A stretch of DNA of 64,000 nt from Hallella mizrahii. GTDB taxonomy: Bacteria; Bacteroidota; Bacteroidia; Bacteroidales; Bacteroidaceae. The stretch is from contig NZ_VUNG01000004.1 of assembly GCF_009695775.1 (NCBI RefSeq), positions 62,001 to 126,000 on the forward strand, given 5' to 3'. Of this stretch, positions 3,067 through 48,442 are shown piece by piece. Position numbers and translations under genes: made by a program. Numbering within the stretch: the stretch's first letter is position 1; each line of letters starts with the position of its first letter. The notes beneath the pieces were generated by a model. The model had not been told where the DNA came from and ran no database searches. It was given only the letters and a program-made list of their open reading frames with translations.

Positions 3067-3068
3067 TA

Positions 3069-3860: not shown

Positions 3861-3865
3861 TAGCT

Positions 3866-16921: not shown

Positions 16922-16927
16922 CGAACC

Positions 16928-17158: not shown

Positions 17159-17613
17159 AAAATAAGAAGATTAAGGATACTTCATATTCATGGATACAGC
17201 TCAAAAAGATGGACAAACATGGATAAAAGAAAAAGTTGCAGGAATCAGAGAACACCAGTACCTTTGTAATCGTAACACTAAATATAATGGATATGAAGGA
17301 AACTGTTTCTACGATACTTCATTTAGCTCGTCGATGTAGGCAAGGCGTTCCGCTTGCGTGTTTGTAGTTGCGTCTAAGCATGGAAAAGCAAAATTATATT
17401 TTGCTCATAAAAACAGGACTGTTACAAATATTTTTATTAAATTTGCAACAAATGCCTATCTTATAAACAGAGCTTAAACCTACTTAGTAGTGCAACTATC
17501 TAATAATAAGCGAGTATCAGCTCTGTAGATAAAGGAAGGCTGTAAAACACATAAAGGAACATTCAACCATAAAAAGGTCATCCAAGATATAGATGGAGCC
17601 TCAATTTTAAAAT
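17159..17613 (+). promoter_or_regulatory. 455-bp leader region of the defence-like operon
   Basis: Holds a strong Bacteroidetes promoter (TTG 17236-17238, 20 bp, TACCTTTG 17259-17266), so the first gene would have an mRNA leader of about 340 nt. In that leader are a 26-codon ORF (17287-17367, MDMKETVSTILHLARRC...) and a hairpin AGCAAAAT/ATTTTGCT (17387-17405, 3-base loop). A second possible -7 box, TAAATTTG, lies at about 17437-17444. No longer gene was found. Composition shifts to AT-rich here, marking the border of the inserted island. Confidence 0.6.
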
Positions 17614-19641
17614 ATGGAAGCAAAACATGAACCAAATGTAGGTGCACAGCAACTGGTACTTGACGAAGACCAGCTGGTATGTATGCTCACCAACAAAGTT
17701 TACAAGGCAACTGAAAAGGAGCAGACTTTGCAGTCAATGATTGCAATGATGATTGACGAATATGGTTTTGACCCTGGTGATATGGAGCGCGATTTCAAAA
17801 TGCAATATGAAGATCCAGACACTGAAAAAATGAAGTCTCAAAAGGTTGACCTTGTCGTCTTTGAAGCAGGTCGGACACACGACTCTGCCAATGTTATTCG
17901 CATCGTCATCGTCGCCAAAAATGCGAAAGTGAAGGCTGATGATAATAAGAACGGTCTCCATCCCTCTCTAGATAGCTTGCTCAACTATTCTGACTGCGAA
18001 TTCGGCTGTTGGACCAATGGTGAGGACTTGCGTTATCTCCATTCTTTTGAGAATGATTCTTTGCAGCCTGATACCGAAGAACTCACTGATTTTCCTGCAG
18101 TCGACCAAACTCTTGAAGACCTTGAGCAGGCTGGCGACCGTGCTATGCCCCGTACTCCGGCTAATGAATCACTCGTAAAAACTTTCAAACGCTGTCACGA
18201 TTATATTTACGGCAATGAAGGACATAAAAAAGATGCCTTTTGGGAGCTACTCAATTTGATCTTTTGCAAACTTTATGACGAAAAGTGCATACAAGAGCAA
18301 TCACGAAAAGGTGAGAGTTACCATCGTCGTTTTTGGGTGGGAGTGAAGGAACTCAACACCCCAGAGGGACAGCACCAAGTAGCGGAACGTATCAAAGGTA
18401 TTTTTGAAGATCTTAAGACCAGTAAACTCTTTCAGGATGTTTTTGATGGGGATGAAGCTATTCATCTTTCTGACCGTGGAGTGGCAGCTGTAGCAGGTGA
18501 ATTGTCAAAATACTCTTTCACTGATGCAACAGTAGATGTAAAAGGTACTGCTTACGAGACGATTGTAGGAACTACGCTCAAACGTGAAGCTGGACAATTC
18601 TTCACTCCGCGTAATGAGGTTCATTGCATGGTGGAGATGCTTGACCCCACTGAGGATGACCGTGTCGTGGACATTGCCTGCGGTACTGCTGGATTCATAG
18701 TTGGTGTTCTTGACCATGTACGTCATAAGATTGCCAAGAGACTCTACCCTAATCTCGACGAATTACATTTGAAGCTGAAACTTAATAGTCCAGATGTCAA
18801 CGAAGAAACTCGCAAGTATGCCGAGAACATGCTCTTTGGTTTTGATTTCGACCCAGACCTAAAGAAGGCAGCACGTATGAATATGATTATGGCTGGCGAT
18901 GGTCATTCTAATATTTTCAATATAAATTCACTGGAATATCCCCAAGGCTCGCTGCCCGATGTTCCAAAGGTGGCGGAATCTGTTAATCATAGCATCGCCA
19001 ACAGCAAAGATAAAGATTTTCCTTTTGAGACTTCTTCCGATAATGCCCAGGGCAAATTCGATATGATTTTCATGAATCCTCCTTTCGGATCAAAAGTAAA
19101 GGTTGCTTCTGCAATTGCTGCCAAATATGAATTAAATAGTAATGCACCAGAAGTTTTGTTTATTGAATGTGCTTATAACTTTCTAAAGCCAGGAGGCAAA
19201 TTAGCTATAATTCTCCCTGATGGTATTCTTAGCAATCCGAATACGGAAGATGTTAGAATTTGGATTCTTCAACATTTTAAGCTCCTAGCTTCTGTAGACA
19301 TGCCTGTTGAAACTTTTCTCCCACAGGTTGGAGTGCAATCTTCTATTTTGTTCTTGCAAAAGAAAACTGCGAAAGAACAATTGGTTTCTATCAACGAGGA
19401 AGATTACGATGTCTTTATGGCAATTGTTGAGAAAGTAGGTAAGGACAGAAGAGGTATTCCTATCTACAAAAGAGATGATGATGGTGCAGAAATTTTGTTC
19501 GATGATGTTAAGCGTTCTATCGTCATTGCACCAAATGGTCGTGAGATAACTCGTGTTCGATTTGAACGTCAGCGTCATCTTGACGATGATTTACCTGATG
19601 TAGCAGCTGCATACAAAAAATTCAAGGAAGGAAAAGTATGA
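17614..19641 (+). CDS. N6-adenine DNA methyltransferase (HsdM-like; MAD2-like)
   Basis: Modifies adenine in DNA to mark self. The 675-aa protein has the class I SAM motif DIACGTAGF at residues 353-361 and the catalytic NPPF at 488-491, preceded by the HsdM-type FFTPRNEV. The first 150 residues look like the N-terminal domain of type I HsdR subunits, but where a nuclease has E-x-K it reads V100-A-K102 (after Asp79), so cleavage by it is unlikely. The 3' end overlaps the HsdS-like gene by ATGA. As I recall, MADS encodes such a methyltransferase as Mad2. An ordinary type I R-M assignment is less likely because no HsdR follows. Confidence 0.85.
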   Translation: MEAKHEPNVGAQQLVLDEDQLVCMLTNKVYKATEKEQTLQSMIAMMIDEYGFDPGDMERDFKMQYEDPDTEKMKSQKVDLVVFEAGRTHDSANVIRIVIVAKNAKVKADDNKNGLHPSLDSLLNYSDCEFGCWTNGEDLRYLHSFENDSLQPDTEELTDFPAVDQTLEDLEQAGDRAMPRTPANESLVKTFKRCHDYIYGNEGHKKDAFWELLNLIFCKLYDEKCIQEQSRKGESYHRRFWVGVKELNTPEGQHQVAERIKGIFEDLKTSKLFQDVFDGDEAIHLSDRGVAAVAGELSKYSFTDATVDVKGTAYETIVGTTLKREAGQFFTPRNEVHCMVEMLDPTEDDRVVDIACGTAGFIVGVLDHVRHKIAKRLYPNLDELHLKLKLNSPDVNEETRKYAENMLFGFDFDPDLKKAARMNMIMAGDGHSNIFNINSLEYPQGSLPDVPKVAESVNHSIANSKDKDFPFETSSDNAQGKFDMIFMNPPFGSKVKVASAIAAKYELNSNAPEVLFIECAYNFLKPGGKLAIILPDGILSNPNTEDVRIWILQHFKLLASVDMPVETFLPQVGVQSSILFLQKKTAKEQLVSINEEDYDVFMAIVEKVGKDRRGIPIYKRDDDGAEILFDDVKRSIVIAPNGREITRVRFERQRHLDDDLPDVAAAYKKFKEGKV

Positions 19642-21050
19642 TTATAGGAAATAAACATTGTAGTTCATTAGTAAAGAACAACAAATTCAGCCCTTCTTTT
19701 TTCTTAAATGAAGGAAGAGCTACATTTGATTATCTGGAAAATGCCCACAAAATTGTAGGACATATTTCAGACATTACAAATAATGTGTTTCGTCCTGGAA
19801 TTTTCAAAAGGGTTTTTGTTGCGAGTTTAGAACATGGTTCACCATACATTACTGCCCAAGCAATGATGAGCCAGGATCCTTTAGCATCATCTAAAATCTT
19901 GTCAAACAAATTAACTGAAAATATTGATTTTATGCGGCTACCTTTGCATTCAATATTAGTCAGTTGCGCTGGAACAGTGGGGAATGTTAGATTAATTGAC
20001 AATACAATTGCAGGGGTTGTAGGCTCTCAAGATATTATAAGGGTAATTCCCAAAGAGAATAATTTTGGATTTGTTTATGCTTATTTATCAACATCCTTGG
20101 TTTACCAATATCTTCAGTCGTGTATTTATGGTTCTGTGGTTCCAAGAATAGAACCCGATGTGGTAGCAAATATTCCATTGGTAGCTGTATCTGAGGATAT
20201 AAAAAACTCTTCAAATGAACTGATATCAGACTCCATTAGATTAAGGGAAGAATCAACTGAGGAATTAACCAAGGCTAGAAAACTTCTAAAATTTAAAGCA
20301 AATCTCAGGGATTTGCAAGCTGAGGATTACGACTATTATGGGCCAAGTGCTCCAAATAGGAAAGTTTCTTGCTTCAAGATCAATAAGAAAAAGATAAACT
20401 CTACCACTATTAATGCATTTAATCTCTCAGAGAGAATTCGTAAGACTAAGTCCTTAATATCTTGCCCAACCAAGCCTTTGAAAGATATTCTCTCGAACGG
20501 AGAAACATTTTCTACGGGGGCTTTTCCACGAGTTGACGTTGGAAAAGATCATGGAGTTATGCTTATTAACCAGAAGGATATATTTGATTCTATTATTAAA
20601 GGTAAATATATTTCAAAGCGGGGAGTAAAACTTGATAATCTTGTAGAATACGGAGAAGTTATAATTGCGGGTGTCGGTACTTTAGGAGAAAGTGAAACAT
20701 TCTGTCGTGCATTATTCGCTAATGAGGATTTGGTGGGGCAACTTGTCTCAGGCGAGTTTATTCGAATGAAGACGAATAACGAAGTCCCATCTGGTTACTT
20801 ATTCGCTTGGCTATCCACAGATTATGGCTTTCGATTCCTAAGAAATATACAAGCAGGAACAAAGCTCTGTCGTCCTATACCGCGGCTTGTGAGAGAAATT
20901 CCCGTTCCCATTCTTGATAAGGACATAATGTCAGAAATTGATTCTAAGGTCAGAGATGCATACACTAAGCGCCATAAGGCGAATGTCTATGAACTTAAGG
21001 CTATTTCCATGGTCGAAAACGAGATTGAGAAGTGGAACAAAGCCAATTAA
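19638..21050 (+). CDS. HsdS-like DNA specificity subunit (MAD5-like)
   Basis: Would guide the upstream methyltransferase to its target. The 470-aa protein has two target-recognition halves: residues about 25-200, and about 270-445 (KPLKDILSNGETFSTGAF onward), each followed by a helical stretch with many charged residues (RLREESTEELTKARKLLKFK in the first). It overlaps the methyltransferase gene by 4 bp, so translation is coupled. In MADS, as I recall, the S-like subunit is Mad5. The recognition sequence cannot be read from the protein. Confidence 0.82.
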   Translation: MIIGNKHCSSLVKNNKFSPSFFLNEGRATFDYLENAHKIVGHISDITNNVFRPGIFKRVFVASLEHGSPYITAQAMMSQDPLASSKILSNKLTENIDFMRLPLHSILVSCAGTVGNVRLIDNTIAGVVGSQDIIRVIPKENNFGFVYAYLSTSLVYQYLQSCIYGSVVPRIEPDVVANIPLVAVSEDIKNSSNELISDSIRLREESTEELTKARKLLKFKANLRDLQAEDYDYYGPSAPNRKVSCFKINKKKINSTTINAFNLSERIRKTKSLISCPTKPLKDILSNGETFSTGAFPRVDVGKDHGVMLINQKDIFDSIIKGKYISKRGVKLDNLVEYGEVIIAGVGTLGESETFCRALFANEDLVGQLVSGEFIRMKTNNEVPSGYLFAWLSTDYGFRFLRNIQAGTKLCRPIPRLVREIPVPILDKDIMSEIDSKVRDAYTKRHKANVYELKAISMVENEIEKWNKAN

Positions 21051-21262
21051 ACGTCAAGCAACGTCGTTGTCATTTTGGAAAATGGCTGGTTTGATGAGGC
21101 GAAACCATAGCTTTCAAGAGGCCAAAAGGCTGCTTTGACGGTGCAGGAAGGGTGTGATCAATTTTGTAAGCTTATAGCAAAAGATCAGGTACTACGTAGC
21201 GAAGCATCATACGCTACTTAGCAAACGACAAAGAATTAGGCAGAAAAACAAAAAAGAAGAAA
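21051..21262 (+). other. 212-bp spacer inside the defence-like operon
   Basis: The only sizeable gap before the kinase gene. It carries a short inverted repeat GTAGCG/CGCTAC (21196-21201 and 21212-21217, 10-base loop) and no convincing promoter or gene. It could separate a methylation module from the effector module. Confidence 0.35.
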
Positions 21263-21934
21263 ATGTCGAAGGTGCATAAAGAACAGATAGAATGTCCACA
21301 CTGCCATAGTATTGGCACGATGGAGATGATAGACGAGGTTGATGCAGACATCGATCCCGTACTTCGGGAGCGTGTGCTCAACGCACAGGCTTTCATCTAT
21401 ACCTGTCCAGAGTGCGGCTCTCGCATCCTTGTCGGCAACAGTCTGCTCTACCATGATGCACAGCATAGGTTCATCATCTTCTTCGACATGGAGCGTCCGG
21501 CGGATTATCATTACCAACCCCTAAAACTCTCCAAGAGCATCATAGAGGATTATCCGGACTACACGTTCCGCTACGTCACAGGCATGACTGAACTTCATGA
21601 AAAGATCATTATTCTTGAAAGCGGATTGAGCGATGTGGTCATCGAAAGGATGAAATATATGTTAGCGCATTACTCTCATCCAGACATAGCCCGAAAAAGT
21701 TACAAAATCCGTTTTGCCAACTATGACCCAGACGATAAGGATGATTCCGAATTCGGCACACTTAGTCTCTTCTATCGTGATAGCAATGACGAGGCTTATG
21801 GCATCAAACTGAACATGCGCCTTTACTATGATTTTAAACTTGCTGTCAAGCTCGACCCCAGAATGCATCCCCAAGGCTGCGTCATAGTGGATGAAGGATG
21901 GATTAGTCGCCAAATGAAAGGAGGTGCCTTATGA
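21263..21934 (+). CDS. CpXC-domain zinc-ribbon protein
   Basis: A 223-aa protein. The N-terminus holds paired CPxC motifs, Cys11-Pro-His-Cys14 and Cys48-Pro-Glu-Cys51, spaced as in the CpXC domain, a putative zinc-binding module found in poorly studied bacterial proteins. The rest is a mixed alpha/beta region without catalytic signature. Its stop overlaps the start of the WG-repeat gene (ATGA), implying a tightly coupled pair. I know of no role for CpXC proteins in MADS, so this may be an added sensor or adaptor. Confidence 0.72.
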   Translation: MSKVHKEQIECPHCHSIGTMEMIDEVDADIDPVLRERVLNAQAFIYTCPECGSRILVGNSLLYHDAQHRFIIFFDMERPADYHYQPLKLSKSIIEDYPDYTFRYVTGMTELHEKIIILESGLSDVVIERMKYMLAHYSHPDIARKSYKIRFANYDPDDKDDSEFGTLSLFYRDSNDEAYGIKLNMRLYYDFKLAVKLDPRMHPQGCVIVDEGWISRQMKGGAL

Positions 21935-24591
21935 GTACCATTCAGTATGAAAATATCATTCAGTTGGAAGGTACAGCCAACAGTATCGTCTTCCGTAATG
22001 GAAAATGGGCCTTGGCTGATGCAGAAGGCAAGCCTTTGACGGACTTCTTGTACGACAAGATAGCACCTCTTGGAGAAGACTTCTTCAAGGCTGGCATCTA
22101 TGTCAAGTCCAATGACGGCAGTCTGATAGTAGAATCTCTCGACACCCGAATGGTTTATGCCATTATAGACAAGACAGGGAAAACACATGTCGGTTTGGAG
22201 AAAGACTACAATTACATCAGTGATTTCCATGAAGGAGAGTGTACAGTGGCCAAGAATGGTCGCTGTGGAATCATCGACTTCGACGGAAATCTCATCATAG
22301 CCTGTAAGTACAAGTACGTACAGCCGCTTGGCGAGGGACACTACCTGCTGTCATCGGACGACCCAGACAACAGATATGCCATCATCATCGACAAGAACGA
22401 CAACGTGCTTATCCCTTCAGATATGCAATTTAGGAGCATCGGCGAGTTTCATAAGGGCGTAGCCATCGCTTCCTATTCTACTACTGAAGGCTTGAGATGG
22501 GGATTGATTGATGATCGTGGCAGATGCATGGCCAACCTCAACTATCAGTACATACAGTATTGGAGTGACGGATATTACCTCGTTGAGCGTGGCTCAAAGA
22601 AAAATCTAATCAATCAAAAAGGAGAGCTTGTCTTGAACGAATGGTTCAATGACATTTACGAGATACATCATGGTTTCTTCATCTTTGGCAATACCATCCG
22701 TAAGACGAAAACCACTCCAACAAGGTATGTGCGTGGTGTTGCCTCGGTCCAAGGTGATATCGTCTTTCCCATGATATTCGAAAGGGTCAGGTGGTCAGAC
22801 GACTATAGCTATATATACGCCGAATTAGGAACCACTCCTTACATACTGACTCTTGATGGAAGTATCTATGATCCGGCTGGCAGCAATCTGCCACAGAAGT
22901 TAGAAATCAACGACAAAACATTCCTCGAAAACACGCTCAACTGGGTGTTACCAGGCCTACAGTTCTTCTATCGTGACACAGATGCCATCAGCAACGCAAA
23001 GCAGATCTACCATAAGGGACAGACTCTGCGTGCCGGTTTCTATGTGGATGCCACCACAAAACTACTGAAGCCCCTGCATAGGACTCGCTTCATCATCGCC
23101 TCCGCCCATGCTGCCCGACTCTTTGAGATTGACAAGTATATAGAGGCAAATTCTAATGTAGGGAAATGGAATTTGGCCATATTCCACTACAACAGCTACT
23201 TCAAGGTCATGGATGTCTATGAGACTCCCACTTGCACCCAAGTATTTCTTCTCCATCTGCCTATGTCAGCAGCATTGCTGTTGGGCGATACTGATTTAAA
23301 TTTCATCGATAAAGCATCCGGAACAGAAAAAACTTTGACACAACTGGCAAGACAGAGCCTTGATGATAAACTGACAATGGACTATCATCCTCGTTCTTTT
23401 GATGAAGATCTCTGCCAACGGATGAAAGCCCCGGTGGGATTGGACAACAGTCTTACACCTTACCCCCTGAGTGCAGAACCAGAGCCGTCGGATCAGAACG
23501 AGGCCGCTTTCAGTAACATGATTCATGAGATCGCCCAAGATGAGGACATCAACTATAAGGTAGAAGTTAAGGATAATTTCGATTGGACAGGGCCGAAGGG
23601 TACTGTGTGTGAAGGCTGCATCTATACGAGAGGCATTCCCGAAGACGCGAGCGGCTGCGGCAGACTGTTCAAAAAGTCTTTCCGCGAGCACGTTGTTAAG
23701 GGTTATTGCGAGTTTCGCAAGATCGACCTGTTCATTCCGTCAGAATTTGAGGAACGCCGGAAGCGAGAAACCATCGAAGCCTGTGAAAAGGCAGAGAAGC
23801 AAAGCGACGTGTTTGCCATAAGCCTATTGAGAGAGTTTGTAAAAGAGAAACTCGACGGCAATATCGACAAGTTGAGAACCTACGATTTATACTCGCTACG
23901 GAACGACGAGAAATATGGAAATTCAGATTTTGCACGTGCAAATATTGTCAAGGCCATTGTAGCCCTCGCCTTCGCAGATGTCTGGCCGGGCCTCAGTGTC
24001 CAGTCCATTGAGGAGTACAAGTATTGGGTGGATGCCATAAGCGATAATACCCGACTTCTTGGAGCAAGGATCCTCGACATGTATTACAAGGGACTTGAAA
24101 GCTGGGATGCACCGAAAGAACTGCAGCAACGTGCATTGGATTGCGGCAAACTGTTCTACAGCGTTGGAGACCTTATTGTCTGGCCGAACAAGATGAATGA
24201 CTACAAGGAGGCATTCGACAGCTACTACGACGGTACAAAATACAAGGGCTATATGGATCAGTACCTGAATGCGATTTATTGCGCTATGACAGGACAGGCG
24301 CGGCCCGATTTTCACATGCAAGGTCTGCTGTACAAGAACCGAAAGGTAATGACAGCATACAAAGGGTATGATGGATTCAAGAGACTTGTTGACAATCTGT
24401 TTCTGACAGATTTCGTCGATGAAGAATATCAGCCGAAGCATATCTTTGCTGGAGTCTGGAGCTACATGAAGGGGCTGGACCAGCAGACATACTTCAAGGC
24501 TGTAGATGAATATATAGATTTCTGCAACGCTTTCATCCCTAAGCGTGCAGACAAAATAATAATGAAGTTAAAGCGTTTGTTAGACAACTAA
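21931..24591 (+). CDS. WG-repeat protein with C-terminal cysteine cluster
   Basis: An 886-aa protein. Residues about 15-310 hold WG-like repeats (RNGKWALADAEGKPL, KNGRCGIIDFDGNLI, GLRWGLIDDRGRCMA), which usually fold as beta-propeller-like binding surfaces. The middle (310-550) resembles nothing I know. A cysteine cluster (CEGC...GCG...GYCEF, residues about 560-595) could bind zinc, and the C-terminal 280 residues are helical. It overlaps the CpXC gene and ends 11 bp before the kinase gene, so it belongs to this operon. A protein-recognition role is an inference from the repeats. Confidence 0.75.
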   Translation: MSTIQYENIIQLEGTANSIVFRNGKWALADAEGKPLTDFLYDKIAPLGEDFFKAGIYVKSNDGSLIVESLDTRMVYAIIDKTGKTHVGLEKDYNYISDFHEGECTVAKNGRCGIIDFDGNLIIACKYKYVQPLGEGHYLLSSDDPDNRYAIIIDKNDNVLIPSDMQFRSIGEFHKGVAIASYSTTEGLRWGLIDDRGRCMANLNYQYIQYWSDGYYLVERGSKKNLINQKGELVLNEWFNDIYEIHHGFFIFGNTIRKTKTTPTRYVRGVASVQGDIVFPMIFERVRWSDDYSYIYAELGTTPYILTLDGSIYDPAGSNLPQKLEINDKTFLENTLNWVLPGLQFFYRDTDAISNAKQIYHKGQTLRAGFYVDATTKLLKPLHRTRFIIASAHAARLFEIDKYIEANSNVGKWNLAIFHYNSYFKVMDVYETPTCTQVFLLHLPMSAALLLGDTDLNFIDKASGTEKTLTQLARQSLDDKLTMDYHPRSFDEDLCQRMKAPVGLDNSLTPYPLSAEPEPSDQNEAAFSNMIHEIAQDEDINYKVEVKDNFDWTGPKGTVCEGCIYTRGIPEDASGCGRLFKKSFREHVVKGYCEFRKIDLFIPSEFEERRKRETIEACEKAEKQSDVFAISLLREFVKEKLDGNIDKLRTYDLYSLRNDEKYGNSDFARANIVKAIVALAFADVWPGLSVQSIEEYKYWVDAISDNTRLLGARILDMYYKGLESWDAPKELQQRALDCGKLFYSVGDLIVWPNKMNDYKEAFDSYYDGTKYKGYMDQYLNAIYCAMTGQARPDFHMQGLLYKNRKVMTAYKGYDGFKRLVDNLFLTDFVDEEYQPKHIFAGVWSYMKGLDQQTYFKAVDEYIDFCNAFIPKRADKIIMKLKRLLDN

Positions 24592-24602
24592 AGACTATAA
24601 AT

Positions 24603-27600
24603 ATGGCACAACTATCAAGGCCCTTGCACGATGAGGGACCAGTAAATAGCGGTGAGAAGAGGTTGCAAAACTACCTCGTCAACAACCTGCCTGACAACTA
24701 CTATGTGGTGCCAAACCTCAATTTGGCAAGCACCAGCCGTCATGTTACCAAATACTGGGAATATGACGTAATTGTGGTAGCTCCCCATGCAGTGTACCAC
24801 ATAGAGAACAAAGACTGGGGTGGAAATCTTGAAGGAGATGACTATGCCTGGTTCCGTAGTGGGCAGGAAGTGGCCAATCCCCACAAGACCGCAAACCTGA
24901 AGAGCCGGGTACTCGCATCGAAGATAAAGAGCGCCCATCCCGATTGGAACTTTGGGCAGATTATTACGCTCGTTACGTTGAGCAATCCAACTCAGACGAA
25001 GTTCGGACTTGACCCCAATAGCGAGACCTACAAGCAAACATTCACGTTGAATGAGAAGCTGATAGAGTTTATCACCGACTTCGATGGAATTGGCCGCAAG
25101 GAAGACTATATCACCAATGTCCAGAAGCCACTCGTGGGTTTCCTGACAGGACAGTCAACATCTCGCAACTATGCCAAGACGGAAATCTTCAACTACAAGA
25201 TTGTCGAGACACTGCAGCAGACTGACGAGTTCACGGAATATCTCTGCGTGCCCAAGCTTATCAATACAGCCCAATACAAGATACGCGAATATCCTCTTGA
25301 TGTAGAAGGCAAAAGCAAAGAAGAACTGGAGAAATTCAGCCTGCAGCTCAATAATGCGTATATAGCACAGGAGAAGATTGGCTCATCGCCGTTCGTCGTC
25401 AAGACGGAATATCGCACCAATGAAGAGAATACATATTATTACGAGATAAGCCGTTATCAGGACGAAAGCTCGTTAAAGGCTAAACTCCGTATCAAGACCT
25501 TCAAGCAACTGGACAAGGTAAACATTATCCTTGATGTAGCACATGGTCTTGCCACAGCCCATAAGGATAATGTATTCCATCGGAACGTATGTCCGGAGAA
25601 TATCTATGTCTACGATGGCGGTCACGCTGCCATCGCCAACTTCGGTATGGCATGGTTCGTAGAGCATATAGACAAGAGCTTTACTGTAGCCAATTTCAGT
25701 GGTGACTCGCCCTATACGGCTCCAGAGCTGATTGGTAAAGATAGCGATGCCTTTGCCTCTACAGACTTATACAGTCTTGGAGTTGTCTTCTATGAGCTGA
25801 TGACGGGTAAAGTGCCGTTTAAGGATGCCATAGCTTTTATCGCCCAAGGAGGTGTTCTGACAGAAGACCAGTTGCCAAGCCATGTCTGTAAAGACCTTCC
25901 CCAGTGGATGGATGAAGTGGCCAAGCATACCATCGTAGAAGATCCTGACGAAAGATGGACTGACGAGAAGTTCATCGATTTCATAACGAAGTCCATCGAA
26001 AGTGGGCAGAAGACACCTTCGCCGACCATAACTTCCACGAAAGACAAGGTGTACTTTCTAAAGGACATGAAGCCCGGCTTGAAGATCTCGCCCTCACTCA
26101 CCTTACATGAGATGCTTGGCAAGGGCGGTTTCGGAAGAGTGTTCAAAGCTCACCATGACTTGCAGAACAAAGACTTTGCGGTAAAGATATTCGAGCGCGA
26201 CTCATCCGTTGACAATGCAATCAATGAGTTCGAGGCGTTGAAGAAGCTTGACCATCCAAACATCGTCAAGTTCGTATGGAACGACCGCACCAGCCAAGGG
26301 TTGTTCTATACCTGTATGGAACTGCTTGAGGGTGAGAACCTGCAGAACTATGTAGAAGGAGACCTGCGCCTGCCGGTGGACGAAATCTATAATATGGCAG
26401 TTCAGATACTCTCTGCATTGGTGTATATGCAGGATAAAGTACCACCAGTGTTCCATCGGGATATAAAACCGAGCAACATCATGTGGGACAGGAAAAACAC
26501 ATTCAAGCTGATAGACTTCAATATCTCCACGACCACCGACGATAAATCGTTCGGCGGAACCTTGCCGTATATGGCCCCTGACCTTATCAAGTCAAGCCAT
26601 GAGATAGACTGGGATTGCAGTGCAGACACCTTTGCGCTCGGCATCACCATCTACCAGCTGTTTGCCCATGCCTATCCATGGAGCGGTGGTGACCTGCGCC
26701 CTAAATTGATGCAAGAGTCAACAAACATACGCAAGTATAACGATAAATTGTCGGACAGAATGGCCGACTTCATTATGAAGAGCATCATTACCGATAAGAC
26801 CAAGCGTTTTACATCGGCAAAGGAGATGCTTGCTGCTTTGGAGGAAATTGGCAAGGACGGCATCCTTAAGAACACCAATAAGGTAATGACCTTCAATAAT
26901 AAGGAAGTTGAAACCGACTATGTTGACTATCTTAATTCCCTCTACAGTCAGAGTCATCATGGCAACAGCGGTACACGTGCAGGCAGCCGCCAAAATACTT
27001 ATGACGACCTTACCTATAGCGAAACCAAACTTGACAAGGAACTCATTGCAGACATCAAGGCTTTGAAATACCGGCTCATCATCATAACAGGTAATGCAGG
27101 AGATGGTAAGACAGCCTTCATTCACCGCATAGAGGACATCGGCGTAAACAAGGAGACTATTGGCACCAATAATGGCTCTACGTTTGAAATTGATGGATTG
27201 AAATTTACCTCCAACTACGATGGTTCCCAAGACGAGGAAGAAAAGGCCAACGATATGGTGCTATCAGACTTCTTCCGCCCATTCAATGACAAGGTTGACT
27301 TCAGGGATGTTCCTGTAGGACGAGTCATTGCCATTAACGAAGGACGTTTGGTTGACTTCCTTTCCACCCATGAGAAACTGCGTGCCCTACAAGACAACAT
27401 AGAGGATTACTTCTACAAGGAGGGACACACCGATCTGATTCCGGGTCTGATGGTCATCAACCTTAACCTCCGTTCTGTCACTGCTCGTGATGATGTCAAT
27501 AAGACTCCAAGTCTGCTTGCCCAGCAAGTGAAGAAGCTGACGCGTCCCGACTTGTGGACGAAGTGTGCAGGCTGCCCCGTTGCCGACCGTTGCTACATTA

Positions 27601-28739: not shown

Positions 28740-30307
28740 GCCAAGTACTGAAATTAAAGAAGGGATCGGTCGCTGGTGGATTCATGAACAAGGATATACT
28801 CTTTGTCGATGTGAAGAGTGTACGCCTTGACCGTGTCCTGACTAACCTATTCCTGAAGATGTATGCCAACGGAGCACCACTAAGTCCTCTTGTAAGGAGA
28901 GGCGGATATGATATTGAGAATATCGAAGAGATTTTATGCAAGCTCGAAGAGAAAGGAAAGTTCAAGGGCGTTGTAGCCAATTCGGGTGCCGTGGAAGACT
29001 GGTTAAGAAGTTCCTTGCTTGAACTGGTCAACCGAGGCAATGTCGTGAAAGAGCATGTCGCGACGCTGAAGCCTCTTCATCTGTTGAGTTGGAGGTTGCA
29101 GAACACCAAGTATTGCCGTGACTACCGTGCCTCTGACCAACTTTATCTAATGCTGCATAGCAACCCTTCTGTTATGGCTGGCCTTGTCAGCTATCTTAGC
29201 AAAGGATGGGACAAGCATTCAGGCAACATAGTAAGCTCTGAGAATCTTGATGTAGATACTACTGGCATTCTCTATCTTACCCAGCCGATGAAGGAGAAGA
29301 ATAACACAAGAAAGGAAATTGAATCAACTCCAGAGCCTTTCCTTAAAGAACAGGCAGCTTTATTCTGTGATGACATTCGTCGTTTACTTCTTTATAAAGA
29401 TGTTCTTCCTCGGACCGTCTTCATAGACTATCTCCGTATACTGTGTGGTTTTCATCTGTGCCTTTACACATTGAAGCTTGTTTACCTCCTTCCCAAAATG
29501 GTGGTTGCAGGGACACGAGACATTCCCGACGACTGGTCGATGGTTGTTGATGTTACTGACAACCTGGACAGTCCGGTAGCTCCATACGCGTGTAGCGATA
29601 TGGAAAGAACGGAGAATGGATATGGACGATACATACGGGCCACCTATATGATTGACTATGTTCAAAAGCGCAGGGGATGCAGTGTTGACGAAGCATTGCG
29701 TATATTAGCAAATGACAATAATCATTCTGATGGCTATTATGAGTCAGACTTGAACAATATTCGTGACGGGCTTCCAAAATCCAGTGAAACAGAATTCGAT
29801 CAGGAAGATTTGAAAGAAATGCTGGAGTTGTTCCCTGAAGATGATTACTTCGACAAGTTGATACACATATTGGAGAAATCCAACTTGGGTGCAAGCCAAC
29901 TACGCTTTACAAGGGACTTCGTAGATTCTGTTTCTATGAAGAACACCTCTTCCAAGCTGCTTGCCGACAGCCGTTCACGTCGTCATCCACGCCGTGGAGC
30001 ATTGGGTTCTAAGTTGTTGGAGACCTTGGTACAATTACTTGTCATTCAAGACAAGCCCAATGGTGGTTTTGAGACGAGATCATTGTCAATTGATGAACTT
30101 GTAGAAGAGATTCGCAACCGATACGGTCTCATCATCAACGGGCTTGCAGAAGACCGCTTTGCTGAGACTGGAGTTGAAGCCAATGAAGCCTTCCGAATAA
30201 ACATGGAGGCTTTCAAGGACAAGCTCCGCCAGATAGGTTTCTATACGGATATGAGCGATGCCTATATCCTACAGAAGATTCGTCCACGTTATAAATTAGA
30301 AAGCTAA
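28736..30307 (+). CDS. Unknown protein between kinase and HerA-like ATPase (MAD7-like by position)
   Basis: A 523-aa soluble protein with no motif that I can name. It is largely helical, with a stretch of winged-helix-like character near residues 20-95 and an acidic region around 335-385. It overlaps both neighbours (4 bp and 1 bp), so it is made in step with the kinase and the HerA-like ATPase and is likely part of one complex. In MADS the gene between the kinase (Mad6) and the ATP-binding protein (Mad8) is Mad7, also of unclear biochemistry as far as I recall. Confidence 0.65.
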   Translation: MSQVLKLKKGSVAGGFMNKDILFVDVKSVRLDRVLTNLFLKMYANGAPLSPLVRRGGYDIENIEEILCKLEEKGKFKGVVANSGAVEDWLRSSLLELVNRGNVVKEHVATLKPLHLLSWRLQNTKYCRDYRASDQLYLMLHSNPSVMAGLVSYLSKGWDKHSGNIVSSENLDVDTTGILYLTQPMKEKNNTRKEIESTPEPFLKEQAALFCDDIRRLLLYKDVLPRTVFIDYLRILCGFHLCLYTLKLVYLLPKMVVAGTRDIPDDWSMVVDVTDNLDSPVAPYACSDMERTENGYGRYIRATYMIDYVQKRRGCSVDEALRILANDNNHSDGYYESDLNNIRDGLPKSSETEFDQEDLKEMLELFPEDDYFDKLIHILEKSNLGASQLRFTRDFVDSVSMKNTSSKLLADSRSRRHPRRGALGSKLLETLVQLLVIQDKPNGGFETRSLSIDELVEEIRNRYGLIINGLAEDRFAETGVEANEAFRINMEAFKDKLRQIGFYTDMSDAYILQKIRPRYKLES

Positions 30308-33300
30308 TGAATACGCAAATAAACACAATATATTACGATCGCTTCTTACAGCACATTGTAGAAAGCTACACCCCTTTGCTTAAATCTGCAAAGGACGGTC
30401 ACTGCATGAAGATAACTGGGCTGGCCATGAAAGAGTTGACAAGACTCCTTCCGATGCTTCGCCCCATCAACCCAAATGTCTCTGTATATATTCTTTCAGA
30501 GACAGAGAATGGCGATGAGTACATCCATGCGTCAAAGCTCATAGAGCTACGCAATGACCCTGAAAAGTCAGTACTCATTCTCGTTCCGTCGAATAGCCGC
30601 ACATCGGCAGAAGATTCATACGGAGACGCAACATTCCAGAACCTTTCTGTAGCTGAGCTGCAAGACTCTTTCTTAGGCTCCTTGATCAACGACATTCCAC
30701 AGGATAAGTTGCATTGGTGGACCCAAATATGGGAGTTGCTGAAAGAAATAACAGTTACAAAGGCTGCATTAACGAATTATATCCTTTACCTTGAACTTCA
30801 CGACTACAGTGATGAAGCATGGGGTAACGGGCTTTATCTGTTTGGACTTGTGCCTGACAGAGAACTTATTAAGGAAGCTTCCTCCATTAGGCGCCGGTTC
30901 ATGATCAACTTGGAGAAAGTCTCATCAGCCTTGGGCGATTTTTCTGTGACGGCTTCAGACAGAATAATGGAGCTGCCACTAAAGAAAAATACTAAGCAAC
31001 GGGAGCTGATGGTTTATCTTACTGGTGAAGGTGACTTTGATGACTGTCTTTCTCTTTTTGAGGACATTGAAGAGAACCATCCGGAGTTCAACTATGCTGC
31101 ATTACCATTAAATATAGACGACAAAGGAGACATATTTATCAGAGTTGACATACAACCGGGCAAAGACCAGAAGAAAGAACTCGTAAAGTCTGATGATGGC
31201 TCCTACGTTATTAACATTTTGCAAGACAAGAAAGGAAAGATATCCTTTAAAGTCATAACAGACCCTTCTCCCAAGGATGATCCTGATATCGTAGCCTTTG
31301 AGATAGCCATCATTCGCGTGGAGGATTTCTCTGAGTGGGGTGTCTTGAAGAAGACCAAAGTCGGCAAGAACAAGAACGGCAGTAGACGTATGTCTGTAAG
31401 TCTGCCGTTCGGAATGCTTGAAGACGGCGAATACATGCTTCGCGTCAGGGCTGTAGACGAGAATGGTATCGTGCTTCCAACAAAGAAAGTATTTAGAGAG
31501 GAAAGAGTCCAGGCTTCATGGGAAGACGCGTTGGAAGAAAATCCTAATCTCAACATCGACCAATATCGCACGGATAACCATGTGGCCTATAGCAATGAGT
31601 CTGAGGTGTTCTCTGTTATCACTTCAGAAGATCCGGTAGATGCCAGTAGCACTGTTGACAAACGTGCCAAAGTTGACAGCATTACCCAAGCGCTAATCAA
31701 CTATCGCATTTCCCATCTCATAAAGAAAGAAGCACTTGAGATACCCGACGACAACATAGACAGGAATGCATGGAAAAAAGGCAATCTGAACAATACTTAT
31801 CAGTTTGACTTCGGTACATCGTATGCCTATCAGATTCAGTTACCGAAGAAGCTCATACAACTTGAGCGTTGCTTCCTTGACCACGAAGATCAATTCGGAT
31901 TTGTCGAAGCTCAGCTCAGTGCCAATCCAACTGATATCAAGCTTCTTGACCCGACAGACACCGCTATCCAAACGCCCAAGTTCGCCAGTACCACGAAAGT
32001 GGACATCCCTGATGATTTGGTCGCTCTTAGACAGGAATTATTCGTACTCATCAAAGAGTCAGCAACTGACGGTGATGAGAATGCTGGCCTTACCTGCACC
32101 TTCGATTTTGCTAAGAATATTGCAATTGTCAAGAACTATTTGCTATCTTACACAAGTTGGCTAAACGCATTGGCAGACCAAGACCTTGATGAAGAATCCT
32201 TAGCAGAAGTTCAGAACTTGGACACCGTTCTGCTCAAAGTGGAAATGCCAGATGCTACAGGCAAGTTTACGAACGTCAAGCTAATCACCCCACTACATCC
32301 GCTCCGACTTGCTTGGATTGTCAATCTTTATGAGCTATACCAGGATTGGGAAGAACGTACCCAAGAGGACTTCAAACGATACAAGTCAGCATGGTATAGA
32401 AAACTCGACAAGCTATTCCAAGGAGAATTACCTCTTGACGTAGCTCCACTTGTGCTTACAGACAAGTCGCTGGAGCAGGCATATCAATACATAGGTGAAC
32501 TTACCTACGGTTGGGGCGCGTACTCACAGCCTCTCTTTGCAGAAGAGAATACATTTGCCGGCAGCTACCGTCAGCTAAAGTCGTATGTGTCAACATTACT
32601 GAACATCACACAGGACAAGCGAATAGATAGCGATGTTAGCGCAGCACTGGTGACAAGACATATTGCGAATTATGTCCTGTCCCATCCTTATACCAACAAA
32701 CTCGTCATCAACCTGTTCAATGCAGGTGATGCATCTGTGTTTGCCAAAGCACTGGTGACTCTTGAAAAAATAGGATTGGGGGGTGAGTTGTCCTACGAGG
32801 TCAGACTATTCTCTGACGAGAATGTCCTTATGTCTGGGGAAGCTTTCCGTGATTTGCTTGATCCAGAATCTCAGCTTGCAGAAGAAGCAGAAGTGTTCTC
32901 ACAGGCATCAGCAAACAGACTATTCCCCAAGCTCCGTTTCTCTCTGAATAAGATAGAAGAGTTCATTAATAATCACGACAAATATCAAGCGCATTTGTCG
33001 TTCTTAGTCAATCCGTTTGCAGTACATACGGAACTGGTACGTCCCGATGAGCTTAGTCGCTCTTTCTATTTGAACGGAACCATCTGCCGCGATGTCATAG
33101 ACTCGCACAGAGAAGGCAAGGCATGGATATGGAATCGTTATGTGTCAAACAAAGTCATTCCAAACCCGGTAAACGAATTCTCCAATACCGAGGTTAATAT
33201 TTTCGGTAAGTTGCAAGATGCAACAAGCAAGTTGCTCTCCACGACGCAAAAGGAGTCTATACCAACCACGACGCTACGTCTTCAAGAAAAAGACACAATG

Positions 33301-35802
33301 ATGATTGGCTTTGTCCACGACTGTAGCGACTGGGTGATAACGTTCGACAAGAACATGGGACCGGAGTTCTATGACCTGCCTTGTACAGAGAAGAACGATG
33401 TGCCTTATCTTTTGGACTATGTTCCCGGTGAGGAGACAACAGGTATTTCTTCTTATCTGACCGCGAGACCCACCAGCGAGATAGCTGCCTTCGTAGTGCC
33501 ATTGTTCAAAGACTATGGCATAGATTTGACACAATATGACAACTTCAAGGAAATTCTTGAGGACATACGTTCTGTGAGCAGTTCTATCATCATGCAGGTG
33601 AATGCCACGAAATCCAAGGCTTTTGAGGTGATAGGGACAACACTTTGCAAACGGTTCCTTGACAAGAAACATATCACTAAAGAGTCTTTCCTTATTCCTA
33701 TCGACTTGCACAAGGAGTTGTTTGAGGATTTGGATTCGCAGTCCAAGGAACGCGCCGACAATCTCGTGGTGAAGATGAATCCTGATAAAAATGAGATAGT
33801 CTTTACTGTAGTAGAGATCAAATGCCGCAATGCGGTCTATCAAAAAGACGAATTACATGCCAAGATAGTAGAACAGATTCAAAATACGATACTGGCGTTA
33901 AAGAGTCATTTTGAAATTGCTACAGATGGTCATGACCGTCTTGACAGAGAACTGAAAACTCTTGAACTGCGTACGCTGTTAGAGTTCTACATACGTCGTT
34001 CGTTGCGCTATGGTCAACTCGACCCTAACGTAGCACAAAGCTATCTCGAATTCTTGAGTAAGCTGGATGATGGTTATACATTACGGTTTAAGCAACTTGG
34101 CGTTATCTTCGACTTCCAACAGAACGAGAGGCAAAAGAAAGACTTTTACGGCGAAGCCGTGGTATACACTATGGGCAACCCCGTAATAACTGAAATCCTT
34201 GACAAAAAGAGTTCGCTTGACACTGCCGATCTTGAAGATAAAGACAAGGAGTTTGTAGACTTTTTCGAGCCAACAGATGTAGTGACAAACGTGGATAGTA
34301 TTGAGCTGAAAAAGCCTCAGGATGAAGTGCAGACACACGTAGACACAGTGGCAGACGGTTTATCTTCCCAACCAATACAGACGATAGAGAGTCAGCCTTC
34401 CGTCAAGTTCGATGAGCATGAGGATGACGAGAAGCCTGTTGAGTCAGAGACATCCTCCAAGCCTGTCGCACCTGTGCCTACGCCAGAACAGGAAAAGTCA
34501 ACGACTCAACCAGAGCTGCAGACAACAGTAGAGCCGCCATTCCAAGTAGAGCCCAAACAACCTGTAGCTGCAGACCCGAACTATGTCAAGCCATCATACG
34601 ACCTGATGATAGGCGCAGGGCAAGAAACACCACAATATGGCATCTTAGGTAAAATGGTGAGCAATGGACGCAAGGTCGCTCTGGACTTAGATGGTTGTAA
34701 TACCATAAGTCTATTTGGTGTTCAAGGTGCTGGCAAGAGTTATACCATCGGTTCTGTTGTGGAAATGACGCTCAAGCAGTTCTCTAATATCAATGTACTG
34801 CCATCACCATTGGCTGGTGTTATCTTCCACTATAGTGACAGCATGGATTATGCGCCAGAATTCACATCCATGGTATATCCAAATGACGAAGCCGGACAGC
34901 TGGCAAAGCTCAAGGCAGAATACGGAGCAGAACCAGGAAGCATAAAGGATGTGGTGCTTTTAGCTCCAGAAAGTCAGGTAGAGACCCGTAAGGCTGAATA
35001 CCCAGACTTGGAGATTCATCGCATCGGTTTCGATTCTTCAGAGCTCGGCGTAAAGGAATGGATGTTCCTGCTAGGTGCAATGGGTAATGACTCCACGTAT
35101 ATCAAGGAGTTGAAACAGATTATGAAGGGCTGTAGAAATAATATGTCACTGGAAAACATCCGAAAAGGTGTTGAGGACAGCCCATACATGTCAACATCTC
35201 AAAGGACATTGGCAACGCAAAAACTCGATTTTGCCTCTGACTACATCACAGATGGCGTAAAACTCCAGCAGTTTATGAAGCCTGGACGGTTGATTATCGT
35301 GGACTTACGTGATGAATTCATAGAGAAGGACGAAGCATTGGGCTTGTTCGTAGTTATGCTGAACATATTCTCTAATGCAAAAGCTGTAAATGGACAGAAG
35401 TTCAACAAGTTTATTGTCTTTGACGAGGCACACAAGTACATGAACAATAAGGACCTTGTGGACTCCATTACGACTGCGATTAGAGAAATGCGACATAAGG
35501 GCGTGTCAATCATGATTGCCAGCCAAGATCCGATGAGCCTGCCTACGGAAATCATAGAATTGAGTTCTATCGTCGTCTTGCATAGGTTCAGCTCACCAGC
35601 CTGGGTCAAGCATGTGCAGAAAGCCATTACGCCGCTGCAAACATTGACTGCTACTGAGATGGCCCAACTCGGCTCTGGCGAGGCACTTGTCTGGGCAAGC
35701 AAAGCTACGGACAAAACCGTAACGATGCGTCCGATAAAGATAAGTATTCGTCCACGTGCAACCAAACATGGTGGTGATACGATTTCAGCCGTTAACAAAT
35801 AA
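30307..35802 (+). CDS. Giant HerA/FtsK-like ATPase with embedded nuclease-like motif (MAD8-like)
   Basis: An 1831-aa protein. The C-terminal 400 residues form a HerA-type motor: Walker A GVQGAGKS at 1471-1478, Walker B FIVFDEAH with Asp1706/Glu1707, then IMIASQDPMSLP, the usual HerA sensor region. Further upstream, Asp1151, Glu1170 and Lys1172 (VVEIKCRN) fit a PD-(D/E)xK nuclease core. A Pro/Glu/Thr-rich linker (about 1340-1430) separates the two. The N-terminal 1100 residues are unrecognised. A motor with a nuclease would make it the likely effector that degrades or blocks foreign DNA. It ends 4 bp before the phosphatase gene. Confidence 0.8.
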   Translation: MNTQINTIYYDRFLQHIVESYTPLLKSAKDGHCMKITGLAMKELTRLLPMLRPINPNVSVYILSETENGDEYIHASKLIELRNDPEKSVLILVPSNSRTSAEDSYGDATFQNLSVAELQDSFLGSLINDIPQDKLHWWTQIWELLKEITVTKAALTNYILYLELHDYSDEAWGNGLYLFGLVPDRELIKEASSIRRRFMINLEKVSSALGDFSVTASDRIMELPLKKNTKQRELMVYLTGEGDFDDCLSLFEDIEENHPEFNYAALPLNIDDKGDIFIRVDIQPGKDQKKELVKSDDGSYVINILQDKKGKISFKVITDPSPKDDPDIVAFEIAIIRVEDFSEWGVLKKTKVGKNKNGSRRMSVSLPFGMLEDGEYMLRVRAVDENGIVLPTKKVFREERVQASWEDALEENPNLNIDQYRTDNHVAYSNESEVFSVITSEDPVDASSTVDKRAKVDSITQALINYRISHLIKKEALEIPDDNIDRNAWKKGNLNNTYQFDFGTSYAYQIQLPKKLIQLERCFLDHEDQFGFVEAQLSANPTDIKLLDPTDTAIQTPKFASTTKVDIPDDLVALRQELFVLIKESATDGDENAGLTCTFDFAKNIAIVKNYLLSYTSWLNALADQDLDEESLAEVQNLDTVLLKVEMPDATGKFTNVKLITPLHPLRLAWIVNLYELYQDWEERTQEDFKRYKSAWYRKLDKLFQGELPLDVAPLVLTDKSLEQAYQYIGELTYGWGAYSQPLFAEENTFAGSYRQLKSYVSTLLNITQDKRIDSDVSAALVTRHIANYVLSHPYTNKLVINLFNAGDASVFAKALVTLEKIGLGGELSYEVRLFSDENVLMSGEAFRDLLDPESQLAEEAEVFSQASANRLFPKLRFSLNKIEEFINNHDKYQAHLSFLVNPFAVHTELVRPDELSRSFYLNGTICRDVIDSHREGKAWIWNRYVSNKVIPNPVNEFSNTEVNIFGKLQDATSKLLSTTQKESIPTTTLRLQEKDTMMIGFVHDCSDWVITFDKNMGPEFYDLPCTEKNDVPYLLDYVPGEETTGISSYLTARPTSEIAAFVVPLFKDYGIDLTQYDNFKEILEDIRSVSSSIIMQVNATKSKAFEVIGTTLCKRFLDKKHITKESFLIPIDLHKELFEDLDSQSKERADNLVVKMNPDKNEIVFTVVEIKCRNAVYQKDELHAKIVEQIQNTILALKSHFEIATDGHDRLDRELKTLELRTLLEFYIRRSLRYGQLDPNVAQSYLEFLSKLDDGYTLRFKQLGVIFDFQQNERQKKDFYGEAVVYTMGNPVITEILDKKSSLDTADLEDKDKEFVDFFEPTDVVTNVDSIELKKPQDEVQTHVDTVADGLSSQPIQTIESQPSVKFDEHEDDEKPVESETSSKPVAPVPTPEQEKSTTQPELQTTVEPPFQVEPKQPVAADPNYVKPSYDLMIGAGQETPQYGILGKMVSNGRKVALDLDGCNTISLFGVQGAGKSYTIGSVVEMTLKQFSNINVLPSPLAGVIFHYSDSMDYAPEFTSMVYPNDEAGQLAKLKAEYGAEPGSIKDVVLLAPESQVETRKAEYPDLEIHRIGFDSSELGVKEWMFLLGAMGNDSTYIKELKQIMKGCRNNMSLENIRKGVEDSPYMSTSQRTLATQKLDFASDYITDGVKLQQFMKPGRLIIVDLRDEFIEKDEALGLFVVMLNIFSNAKAVNGQKFNKFIVFDEAHKYMNNKDLVDSITTAIREMRHKGVSIMIASQDPMSLPTEIIELSSIVVLHRFSSPAWVKHVQKAITPLQTLTATEMAQLGSGEALVWASKATDKTVTMRPIKISIRPRATKHGGDTISAVNK

Positions 35803-35806
35803 CTGA

Positions 35807-36493
35807 ATGGAGATATACCAATATACAAACAAAGGCCAAAGAAAGGAGAACCAAGACTATACAGTCTATAAGGTTCTCCCCTCTGGTGACAGCATATTTA
35901 TAGTTGCCGATGGCATGGGAGGTTATTCTTACGGAGATGTAGCCTCTCATGTCGTTGGTGATTCGATTGCTTCTTTTGTTGAAGCAAATATTGATAAGTA
36001 TGAACCTCAAACCTTGTTGGAAAACGCTATCAAAGGGGCTAATGAAGCATTAATGCAGAAGCGCCTGTTGTTGAATGTCCGTAAGATGGGGACAGTAGTA
36101 TCTGTAGCAATGATAAAAGGTGGTGAACTATATGTCACATGGCTTGGAGACAGCCGTGTTTATTTATTCAATGGGGATGATATGGTTTTCAAGACCGAAG
36201 ACCATTCTTTGCTTAATGAGATTAAGACGAAAAGGCCATTAAGTGCATCTACGATTGAAAGATATGCAGGTGTTGTAACCAAATGTATAATGGGTGATGA
36301 CGACTTGGGGGAGATTCCTGTGAAAGTAATACCCATTACTAAGGGCGAAACGATCGTACTTTGCACGGATGGTTTCCATAAGGAAATGGATATACAATGG
36401 GCTCTGAATTATAATACAGCTTTAAAAGAAACGCTGGATGCCAAATCCAACTACGCTTCTGATAACTATTCATTTATAAAAGTCGCAATTTAA
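35807..36493 (+). CDS. PP2C-family Ser/Thr protein phosphatase
   Basis: A 228-aa metal-dependent phosphatase. PP2C motifs are present: ENQD at residues 14-17, VADGMGG (Asp35), LGDSRVYLF near 105-115, and LCTDGF towards the end. It starts 4 bp after the HerA-like gene and ends 1 bp before the next, so it is part of the same operon. The obvious substrate is the kinase at 24603 or that kinase's targets, which would make the island a reversible phosphorylation switch. Confidence 0.9.
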   Translation: MEIYQYTNKGQRKENQDYTVYKVLPSGDSIFIVADGMGGYSYGDVASHVVGDSIASFVEANIDKYEPQTLLENAIKGANEALMQKRLLLNVRKMGTVVSVAMIKGGELYVTWLGDSRVYLFNGDDMVFKTEDHSLLNEIKTKRPLSASTIERYAGVVTKCIMGDDDLGEIPVKVIPITKGETIVLCTDGFHKEMDIQWALNYNTALKETLDAKSNYASDNYSFIKVAI

Positions 36494-36494
36494 T

Positions 36495-37040
36495 ATGATA
36501 TTGAGTCAAGACATCATCAAGGACATCAAGGGAAAGTCAAATTTAATGTTTGATAAAGCTTCTGATTTTAATGTTCTTACAGATAAAATCAGCAAAGAGA
36601 CCGGGCGTACTATCGGACTAACCACTATAAAGAGGCTTTTCGGCTATATAGATGATGACCGCAAGACCAGCCAATATACCTTGAATACCCTTGCGCTATA
36701 TCTTGGCTTCAGTGACTGGAATGAATATTCTAGGTCAAAGAATCTTGATAGCGACTGGAATTTTGACACAGACAAAGTTCTAATAGCAGAGCAGACTATT
36801 GGGACTATGATTCATGTTAAGTATCTTGACAGAATCGTTACATTCGTAGTTACCGAATATGACAATCAGAAGGTACTACGAGTGGAGAAAGCTGAAAATA
36901 GCAGTTTGAAAGTTAACGATATCTTGTTCGTGAACAGTCTTCAAGTAGGTAATATTATAGAAGCCGACAAAGTCATCCGTGGTAAAAATATTGGAAATTA
37001 CCGCACTCATGGAGAAATATCGGAAATGCATGTAGAGTAA
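36495..37040 (+). CDS. Small putative DNA-binding regulator at the end of the operon
   Basis: A 181-aa protein. Residues 20-80 (TIGLTTIKRLFGYIDDDRKTS, then YTLNTLALYLGFSDWNEY) match a pattern common in Bacteroidetes proteins: a helix-turn-helix-like segment next to LGF.DW. The C-terminal half is a small beta domain. It starts 1 bp after the phosphatase gene. A role as operon regulator is plausible but inferred; DNA binding is not proven by the sequence. Confidence 0.6.
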   Translation: MILSQDIIKDIKGKSNLMFDKASDFNVLTDKISKETGRTIGLTTIKRLFGYIDDDRKTSQYTLNTLALYLGFSDWNEYSRSKNLDSDWNFDTDKVLIAEQTIGTMIHVKYLDRIVTFVVTEYDNQKVLRVEKAENSSLKVNDILFVNSLQVGNIIEADKVIRGKNIGNYRTHGEISEMHVE

Positions 37041-37564: not shown

Positions 37565-37569
37565 AAATT

Positions 37570-38121: not shown

Positions 38122-38139
38122 CTTAAAGCTAACAAGAAT

Positions 38140-38706: not shown

Positions 38707-38739
38707 TGTTATCATATAAAACATATAAAGGAAAGAATT

Positions 38740-48413: not shown

Positions 48414-48442
48414 CAGTTGAATATACAGAAAGGAAATATACT

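Follow-up and report, generated by a model that had tools for sequence, protein, structure and literature searches.

A MADS core with a PP2C phosphatase and DndFGH homologues among conjugation genes of Hallella mizrahii

DndFGH is described, in passages of PMC11662687, as a 2:2:1 complex which nicks DNA as it translocates and whose ATPase is repressed by phosphorothioate, its mark of self. Parts of PMC10853773 present it as a standalone system with no inbuilt modification module and report fusions of NERD, pseudokinase and kinase domains to DndF; the terms 'HsdS', 'HsdM', 'phosphatase' and 'PP2C' do not appear in the main text of that paper. As for MADS, part of a 2026 article (PMC12904381) leaves its restriction mechanism blank in a table and counts it among systems restricting by unknown mechanisms. 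MADS is not named in the available part of PMC12839542, in PMC12707154 'MADS' occurs once, in the name of an author, and a 2026 paper on Halococcus (PMC13321033, excerpt) likens genes of a loose group to those of MADS, Shango, phosphorothioation and BREX. In this work, we analyze a run of nine genes, located at 17614-37040 on the + strand of a 64,000-nucleotide stretch of the Hallella mizrahii genome (contig NZ_VUNG01000004.1, positions 62,001 to 126,000), hereafter the window.

The locus is a MADS core with a PP2C phosphatase and without Mad1, Mad3 and Mad4; the C-terminal half of its Mad6, its Mad7 and its Mad8 are homologous to DndF, DndG and DndH, a relation missed in the first-pass annotation of the window. 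Gene order, conserved catalytic motifs and the near constancy of the PP2C are all directly observed. On balance, we favour a reading in which this core, formed by members of the MAD2, MAD5, MAD6, MAD7 and MAD8 families and setting a methyltransferase and a specificity subunit beside DndFGH homologues, likely destroys DNA devoid of the host methyl mark, a fused kinase and the PP2C being predicted to turn this attack on or off. From this locus, there is evidence for a DndFGH-type effector module in MADS. The MADS discovery paper may already make this link; among papers from 2023 on, none was found naming MADS and DndFGH together with a methyltransferase and a kinase, and the link may be in print.

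Membership in MADS and missing components

Five proteins exceed the NCBIfam equivalog cut-offs of MADS families: the Mad2-like N6-adenine DNA methyltransferase, of 675 amino acids (17614-19641; NF047738, 756 bits against a cut-off of 720), the Mad5-like specificity subunit, or S (19638-21050; NF047740, 476.8 against 400), and the Mad6-like (24603-28739; NF047741, 710.5 against 460), Mad7-like (28736-30307; MAD7, 550.7 against 410) and Mad8-like (30307-35802; NF047742, 213 against 175) proteins. CpXC and WG genes lie between S and Mad6, while Mad8 is followed by the PP2C phosphatase (35807-36493; Pfam PP2C_2, 6.4e-18) and by the last gene of the run, a probable regulator of no named family (36495-37040), with no match in Pfam or NCBIfam. 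Pfam matches are to N6_Mtase, Methylase_S, CpXC, WG_beta_rep, NERD with two Pkinase stretches, HerA_C and PP2C_2, and PADLOC agrees with Pfam on the methyltransferase, S, CpXC, WG repeats, NERD and kinases, HerA-type C-terminus and PP2C; neither the Mad7-like protein nor the regulator has a significant Pfam match.

All nine genes are open frames, and adjacent ones overlap by 1-4 bp or are spaced by 1-11 bp, the exception being the 212 bp (21051-21262) between S and CpXC. The first-pass annotation had described such a run of overlapping genes and its likeness to Mad2, Mad5, Mad6, Mad7 and Mad8, and both claims stand, the kinase, HerA-like and intervening proteins falling inside MADS families. 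It had also closed the run at 36493, which is indeed the end of the PP2C gene, but the regulator, which it had named, extends to 37040. We set the end of the system there, because four downstream open reading frames (37130-39372) match nothing above 25 bits in the sequenced stretches compared from other loci.

Relatives were gathered by a search with a Mad7 alignment, which yielded 80 genome loci (the best 80 of 87 relatives) and one locus from a viral collection, 81 overall, the window's own copy (L001, L002) being excluded. Counts are not independent, since near-identical loci (L015/L016, L018/L019) were kept. Within the order, Mad7 is present in one genome out of 295, the window's own, in single copy. 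Plasmids were sampled through four records, one from Pseudomonadota, and MADS outside Bacteroidota is hardly represented. The core order methyltransferase-S-Mad6-Mad7-Mad8-PP2C recurs in other genomes, which argues for an association beyond chance; co-occurrence, on which the first-pass proposal depended, is in this way confirmed. A Bacillus record (L050) holds a MADS core operon, with no PP2C, nested among Bacteroidota on the Mad7 tree; a transfer across phyla is possible.

All eight MAD families are found above NCBIfam cut-offs in a Piscinibacter plasmid locus, L085. The window resembles it in the presence and order of Mad2, Mad5, Mad6, Mad7 and Mad8 and in the size of Mad6 (1378 amino acids, against 1391 in L085), but features PP2C and regulator genes after Mad8, and CpXC and WG between S and Mad6, and no Mad1, Mad3 or Mad4 was found. 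When searched by phmmer within window positions 12001-42000, L085 Mad1, Mad3 and Mad4 had no match (for Mad1, among open reading frames of at least 40 amino acids), and no frame resembling Mad1, an excisionase-type helix-turn-helix protein, was recognized by eye among the 12 of at least 30 amino acids at 16900-17620. The place of the MAD3 ATPase and of MAD4, between MAD2 and MAD5, is empty, methyltransferase and S genes overlapping by 4 bp. The absence of Mad1 and Mad3, remarked upon in the first pass, thus holds and extends to Mad4. Single-sequence searches of the 81 loci with the same three proteins returned no more than three matches (22-24 bits), scattered over L034, L036 and L080, none lying between core genes or just before them. 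An XRE-type helix-turn-helix gene, not Mad1 but resembling one found before the methyltransferase of plasmid locus L086, lies upstream of the methyltransferase in at least 7 of the 81 loci (L005, L008, L011, L017, L024, L025, L078); none precedes the methyltransferase in the window.

The methyltransferase features motif I and NPPF, the latter retained in 70 out of 70 homologues (residue counts, here and below, cover full-length homologues, truncated frames below set lengths being left out). Its N-terminal HSDR_N_2 domain (Pfam, residues 36-146), where a conserved ExK was not found, is probably a dead nuclease-like domain. Methyltransferase and S genes are adjacent in 71 of the 72 loci showing both. 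In L068, the sole other case, a gene of 1040 amino acids (1410-4532) separates them. The pairing of an N6 methyltransferase with S, next to which cargo genes lie, recalls Type I restriction-modification; in contrast to it, no HsdR is found among the genes of the run, and cutting would fall to the DndFGH-type complex.

Homology to DndFGH and the kinase-phosphatase pair

Mad6 joins a NERD nuclease domain (residues 15-118, 24645-24956; recognized by Pfam and by conserved residues), a predicted pseudokinase (residues about 280-455, 25440-25967), an active-looking Ser/Thr kinase (residues 499-753, 26097-26861) and a DndF/DptF-like P-loop region (residues 773-1361, 26919-28685); the NCBIfam MAD6 profile spans only residues 1-612. 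NERD residues D55 and K70 are found in all 77 homologues and E68 in 76; functional roles are assumed for these and for the other active-site residues counted here. In the first kinase domain, Asn replaces the Asp of DFG in 75 of 77 homologues, and HRD is found in 70 and HRN in 7. The window protein carries NFG and HRN, and the domain is therefore predicted to be a pseudokinase. The second kinase domain retains, in the homologue alignment, K528, HRD (Arg in 76 out of 77) and DFN.

The N-terminal half of Mad6, with its NERD, pseudokinase and kinase domains, is similar to PglW of type 2 BREX; the C-terminal half is DndF-like, whereas PglW has winged helix-turn-helix and iSTAND parts, according to a portion of PMC12839542. 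The PglW model scores 203.6 bits on Mad6, against a cut-off of 990, so that assignment to type 2 BREX was rejected, and neither PglZ nor BrxC was matched among ten window proteins in the NCBIfam scan.

The C-terminal half of Mad6 aligns with the DptF profile over 520 columns (hhalign 99.6%, E 1.8e-24), and its P-loop, GNAGDGKT, is conserved in 77 out of 77 homologues. Similarly, residues 514-1261 of Mad8, only residues 31-225 of which are covered by the NCBIfam MAD8 model, align with DptH over 627 columns (99.3%). This region contains a PD-(D/E)xK-type nuclease motif (33757-33822), whose D1151, E1170 and K1172 are each found in 79 of 79 homologues and whose D...ExK aligns with a D...ExK stretch of DptH. 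The HerA/FtsK-type ATPase of Mad8 (residues 1454-1828, 34666-35790) is equally constant in Walker A K1477, Walker B DE and Q1740 (79/79). Dpt profiles were built from nine loci (8 rows for DptF, 7 for DptG and 7 for DptH, DptG and DptH of L091 and the whole of L092 being left out). The window thus features three homologous proteins in the F-G-H order, sharing with DndFGH/DptFGH the GDGK P-loop, the D...ExK nuclease motif and the HerA/FtsK-type ATPase. It differs from DndFGH in the fusion of NERD, pseudokinase and kinase to DndF, in the PP2C partner and in the self mark, which would be N6-methyladenine instead of phosphorothioate. No match to dndBCDE was found among the scanned proteins, which are part of those of the window, the whole genome not being searched.

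The PP2C protein carries five aspartates, D17, D35, D115, D188 and D219, which we take to be metal-binding, each conserved in 75 out of 75 homologues. The first pass had regarded this gene as a local addition; of the 77 loci whose sequence extends 0.7 kb or more past Mad8, 74 have it directly after Mad8, and that view has to be abandoned. Regulator homologues are found in 11 of the 81 loci. A search for a replacement phosphatase gave no PP2C match in L050 and L077. In L063, which lacks the usual PP2C, the position immediately after Mad8 is taken by a TerY-P-like set (17073-21572): it comprises two VWA proteins, one with TerY_C, a PP2C protein of 502 amino acids and a frame in which kinase-like motifs are seen by eye. 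Since the set seems to carry a kinase of its own, the role of its phosphatase as a replacement is only suggestive.

Beyond homology and residue conservation, a mechanism may be inferred from these sequences. Mad2 and Mad5 would write N6-methyladenine at sites picked by S. Mad6, Mad7 and Mad8 would form a DNA-translocating nicking complex similar to DndFGH and, mapping the DndFGH mechanism on MADS, are predicted to translocate on and nick DNA devoid of the Mad2-Mad5 mark, methyladenine replacing phosphorothioate as repressor of the ATPase of the complex. The cut would be made by the PD-(D/E)xK site of Mad8. The active kinase, with the pseudokinase ahead of it, may phosphorylate the complex or host proteins, the PP2C would keep it quiet until infection upsets the balance, and NERD could be a second nuclease, perhaps self-directed.

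A number of observations weigh against this reading. Of the 18 families that Mad6 matches with E at or below 0.1, none is the DptF equivalog model TIGR03238, nor is the DndF of L087 recognized by the mad6 model of PADLOC; since these models fail to cross-match, the relation between Mad6 and DndF must be remote. In sequence, Mad7 is only weakly similar to DptG (76% across 54 columns, or 75-76% if the alignment is extended to 413-422 columns); Foldseek found no PDB match for the Mad7 model at E 0.001, and its match to DndG came from the VIA second look, not from Foldseek's own search. Mad8 residues 1-513 do not align with DptH, and the HerA part does so only once cut out (90.7%, 64 columns); with full-length Mad8, it comes up as a further alignment at 0.3% or below. 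The loci, being chosen by likeness to the window Mad7, under-sample distant MADS. Finally, PP2C is not essential everywhere, since L050, L063 and L077 are without it, and so are two of the four plasmid loci (L085 and L117, but not L086 and L118).

A different account, which seems to us unlikely, is a phosphorylation-driven abortive infection: the second kinase and NERD would be the effectors and PP2C the antitoxin, Mad7 and Mad8 only sensing or loading on DNA, and unmethylated DNA would free the kinase and shut down the cell. Conservation of the NERD and kinase residues is consistent with it. KKP, as reported in part of PMC11341870, works likewise, a PP2C restraining paired kinases and a phage protein inhibiting the PP2C, and passages of PMC10853773 propose fused NERD and kinase domains as co-effectors, possibly suicidal. 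As in KKP, a pair of kinase domains is here set against a PP2C of family PF13672; the locus was not assigned to that system, in which the kinases are two separate genes, whereas here a single chain carries both domains, of which the first is predicted to be a pseudokinase, and is linked with a restriction complex and a methyltransferase. The nuclease and HerA motifs of Mad8, invariant in its homologues, are hard to square with a sensing role only, and we retain destruction of unmarked DNA by a DndFGH-type complex as the preferred reading.

The slot between S and Mad6

The 212-bp gap marks the left edge of a slot, which in the window hosts the gene for CpXC, a zinc-ribbon protein (21263-21934; Pfam CpXC, 2.9e-28), the first of what appears an exchangeable cassette, and the WG gene (21931-24591), coding for an N-terminal, beta-propeller-like WG-repeat region and a long conserved C-terminal part. 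Most loci showing both S and Mad6 (62 out of 76) have these genes overlapping or within 30 bp, with no room for a slot gene; the gap exceeds 30 bp in 14, and 12 of them contain genes. Schlafen AlbA_2 proteins fill the slot in L003-L007, L010-L012 and L083 (called by Pfam in 7 of the 9, L004 and L006 being likened to L003 by eye), and a YhcG/DUF1016 nuclease occupies it in L008. CpXC and WG are found in the slot of three of the 76 other loci: L009, L007, beside AlbA and with a split WG frame, and L013, beside a gene of 668 amino acids of no clear family. A CpXC start of 62 amino acids lies alone in the slot of L015 (5585-5773), and likewise of L016; it is probably the scar of a lost cassette.

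The first-pass annotation had proposed that CpXC, WG and PP2C set apart a distinct subtype of MADS, with the CpXC and WG pair as a requirement, a notion to which we give little credence. In its favour, the two genes overlap by 4 bp, recur in the same slot of L007, L009 and L013, and are fused, as CpXC and WG core, in the single proteins P0124 and P0125; the fusion in P0125, 50% identical to the window CpXC and 63% to WG, argues that the two act together. However, besides the constancy of PP2C, the rarity of the pair and the many loci with no room for it, L008 and L009 are 92% identical at the DNA level over 9.9 kb that begin with Mad6 and end within Mad8, yet carry YhcG and CpXC+WG, respectively. 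Their methyltransferase genes are 79% identical; of the S genes, only a part can be aligned (67% across 504 bp), and the slot genes show no alignment at all. A CpXC+WG pair also lies outside MADS, downstream of HsdR-like and DUF262-like genes (named by eye) of a viral-collection contig (L116, 9312-12091), so that a subtype defined in this way was rejected.

On the Mad7 tree, the state of the slot changes at least six times, rows with no visible slot being excluded, and the nearest relatives L007, L008 and L009 have three different slot contents. States were CpXC+WG (including L007), AlbA, YhcG and empty (including L015); the tree was built by a quick method, with long branches at L077 and L085 and with L016, L040, L041, L023 and L026 left out. 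The tree and the L008/L009 comparison suggest that S is probably exchanged along with the slot gene, and CpXC+WG would be one of several exchangeable accessory cassettes travelling with S. Full-length WG matches are confined to the window's own genome (1 of 393 order genomes), to 1 of 395 class genomes (1e-40) and to one viral-collection contig; 57 other genomes match the WG repeats only, at 63.4 bits or less.

Setting in a conjugative element and meaning

Genes for conjugation, a relaxase and an integrase flank the locus, which bears out its placement, in the first pass, within an integrative and conjugative element: the window carries a TraG-type ATPase, TraM, a DUF4138 protein, a coupling protein, a relaxase, a DDE transposase and a tyrosine integrase. 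Both the conjugation genes and the relatives of Mad7 point to the order Bacteroidales. The coupling protein has three more matches in the same genome (98, 92 and 89% identity, the 89% match being over residues 1-499 and with one internal stop), which involve contigs C43, C49 and C20. DNA likeness to the window stops within about 0.4 kb behind the coupling gene, bar one or two further stretches, and different genes lie behind each of the four. As the MADS run has no match in the sibling stretches examined, two of which reach a contig end, one among several sibling elements probably carries it as cargo. That the locus, lying among conjugation genes, instead serves the element for methylation or epigenetic regulation, such as control of transfer, and plays no real part against phages, is very improbable given two conserved nuclease motifs and five families labelled 'antiphage' by NCBIfam.

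A RecD2-like helicase (14720-16921), with a 73% DNA match in the C20 sibling, lies just before the run; a small protein with weak RelA/SpoT-type similarity (37130-37564), matching nothing in the compared stretches of other loci, follows it. An AbiEii nucleotidyltransferase and its upstream gene, an AbiE-type toxin-antitoxin (48383-50108), are found near the integrase.

As a broader proposition, advanced only tentatively, MADS might be a DndFGH machine whose self mark has changed from phosphorothioate to N6-methyladenine and which is armed by a phospho-switch, tandem kinase versus PP2C, with S and slot cassette swapped as a unit, each new DNA specificity bringing its own accessory effector. PP2C would add a predicted off-switch, which is missing from L085 with its eight MAD genes. 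Two literatures are joined in this way, that of DndFGH as a standalone system and that of MADS, where its homologues are accompanied by a modification module. Since the Dnd homology names a candidate nuclease, its residues and a likely translocating ATPase, the question of how MADS cuts becomes testable by point mutants.

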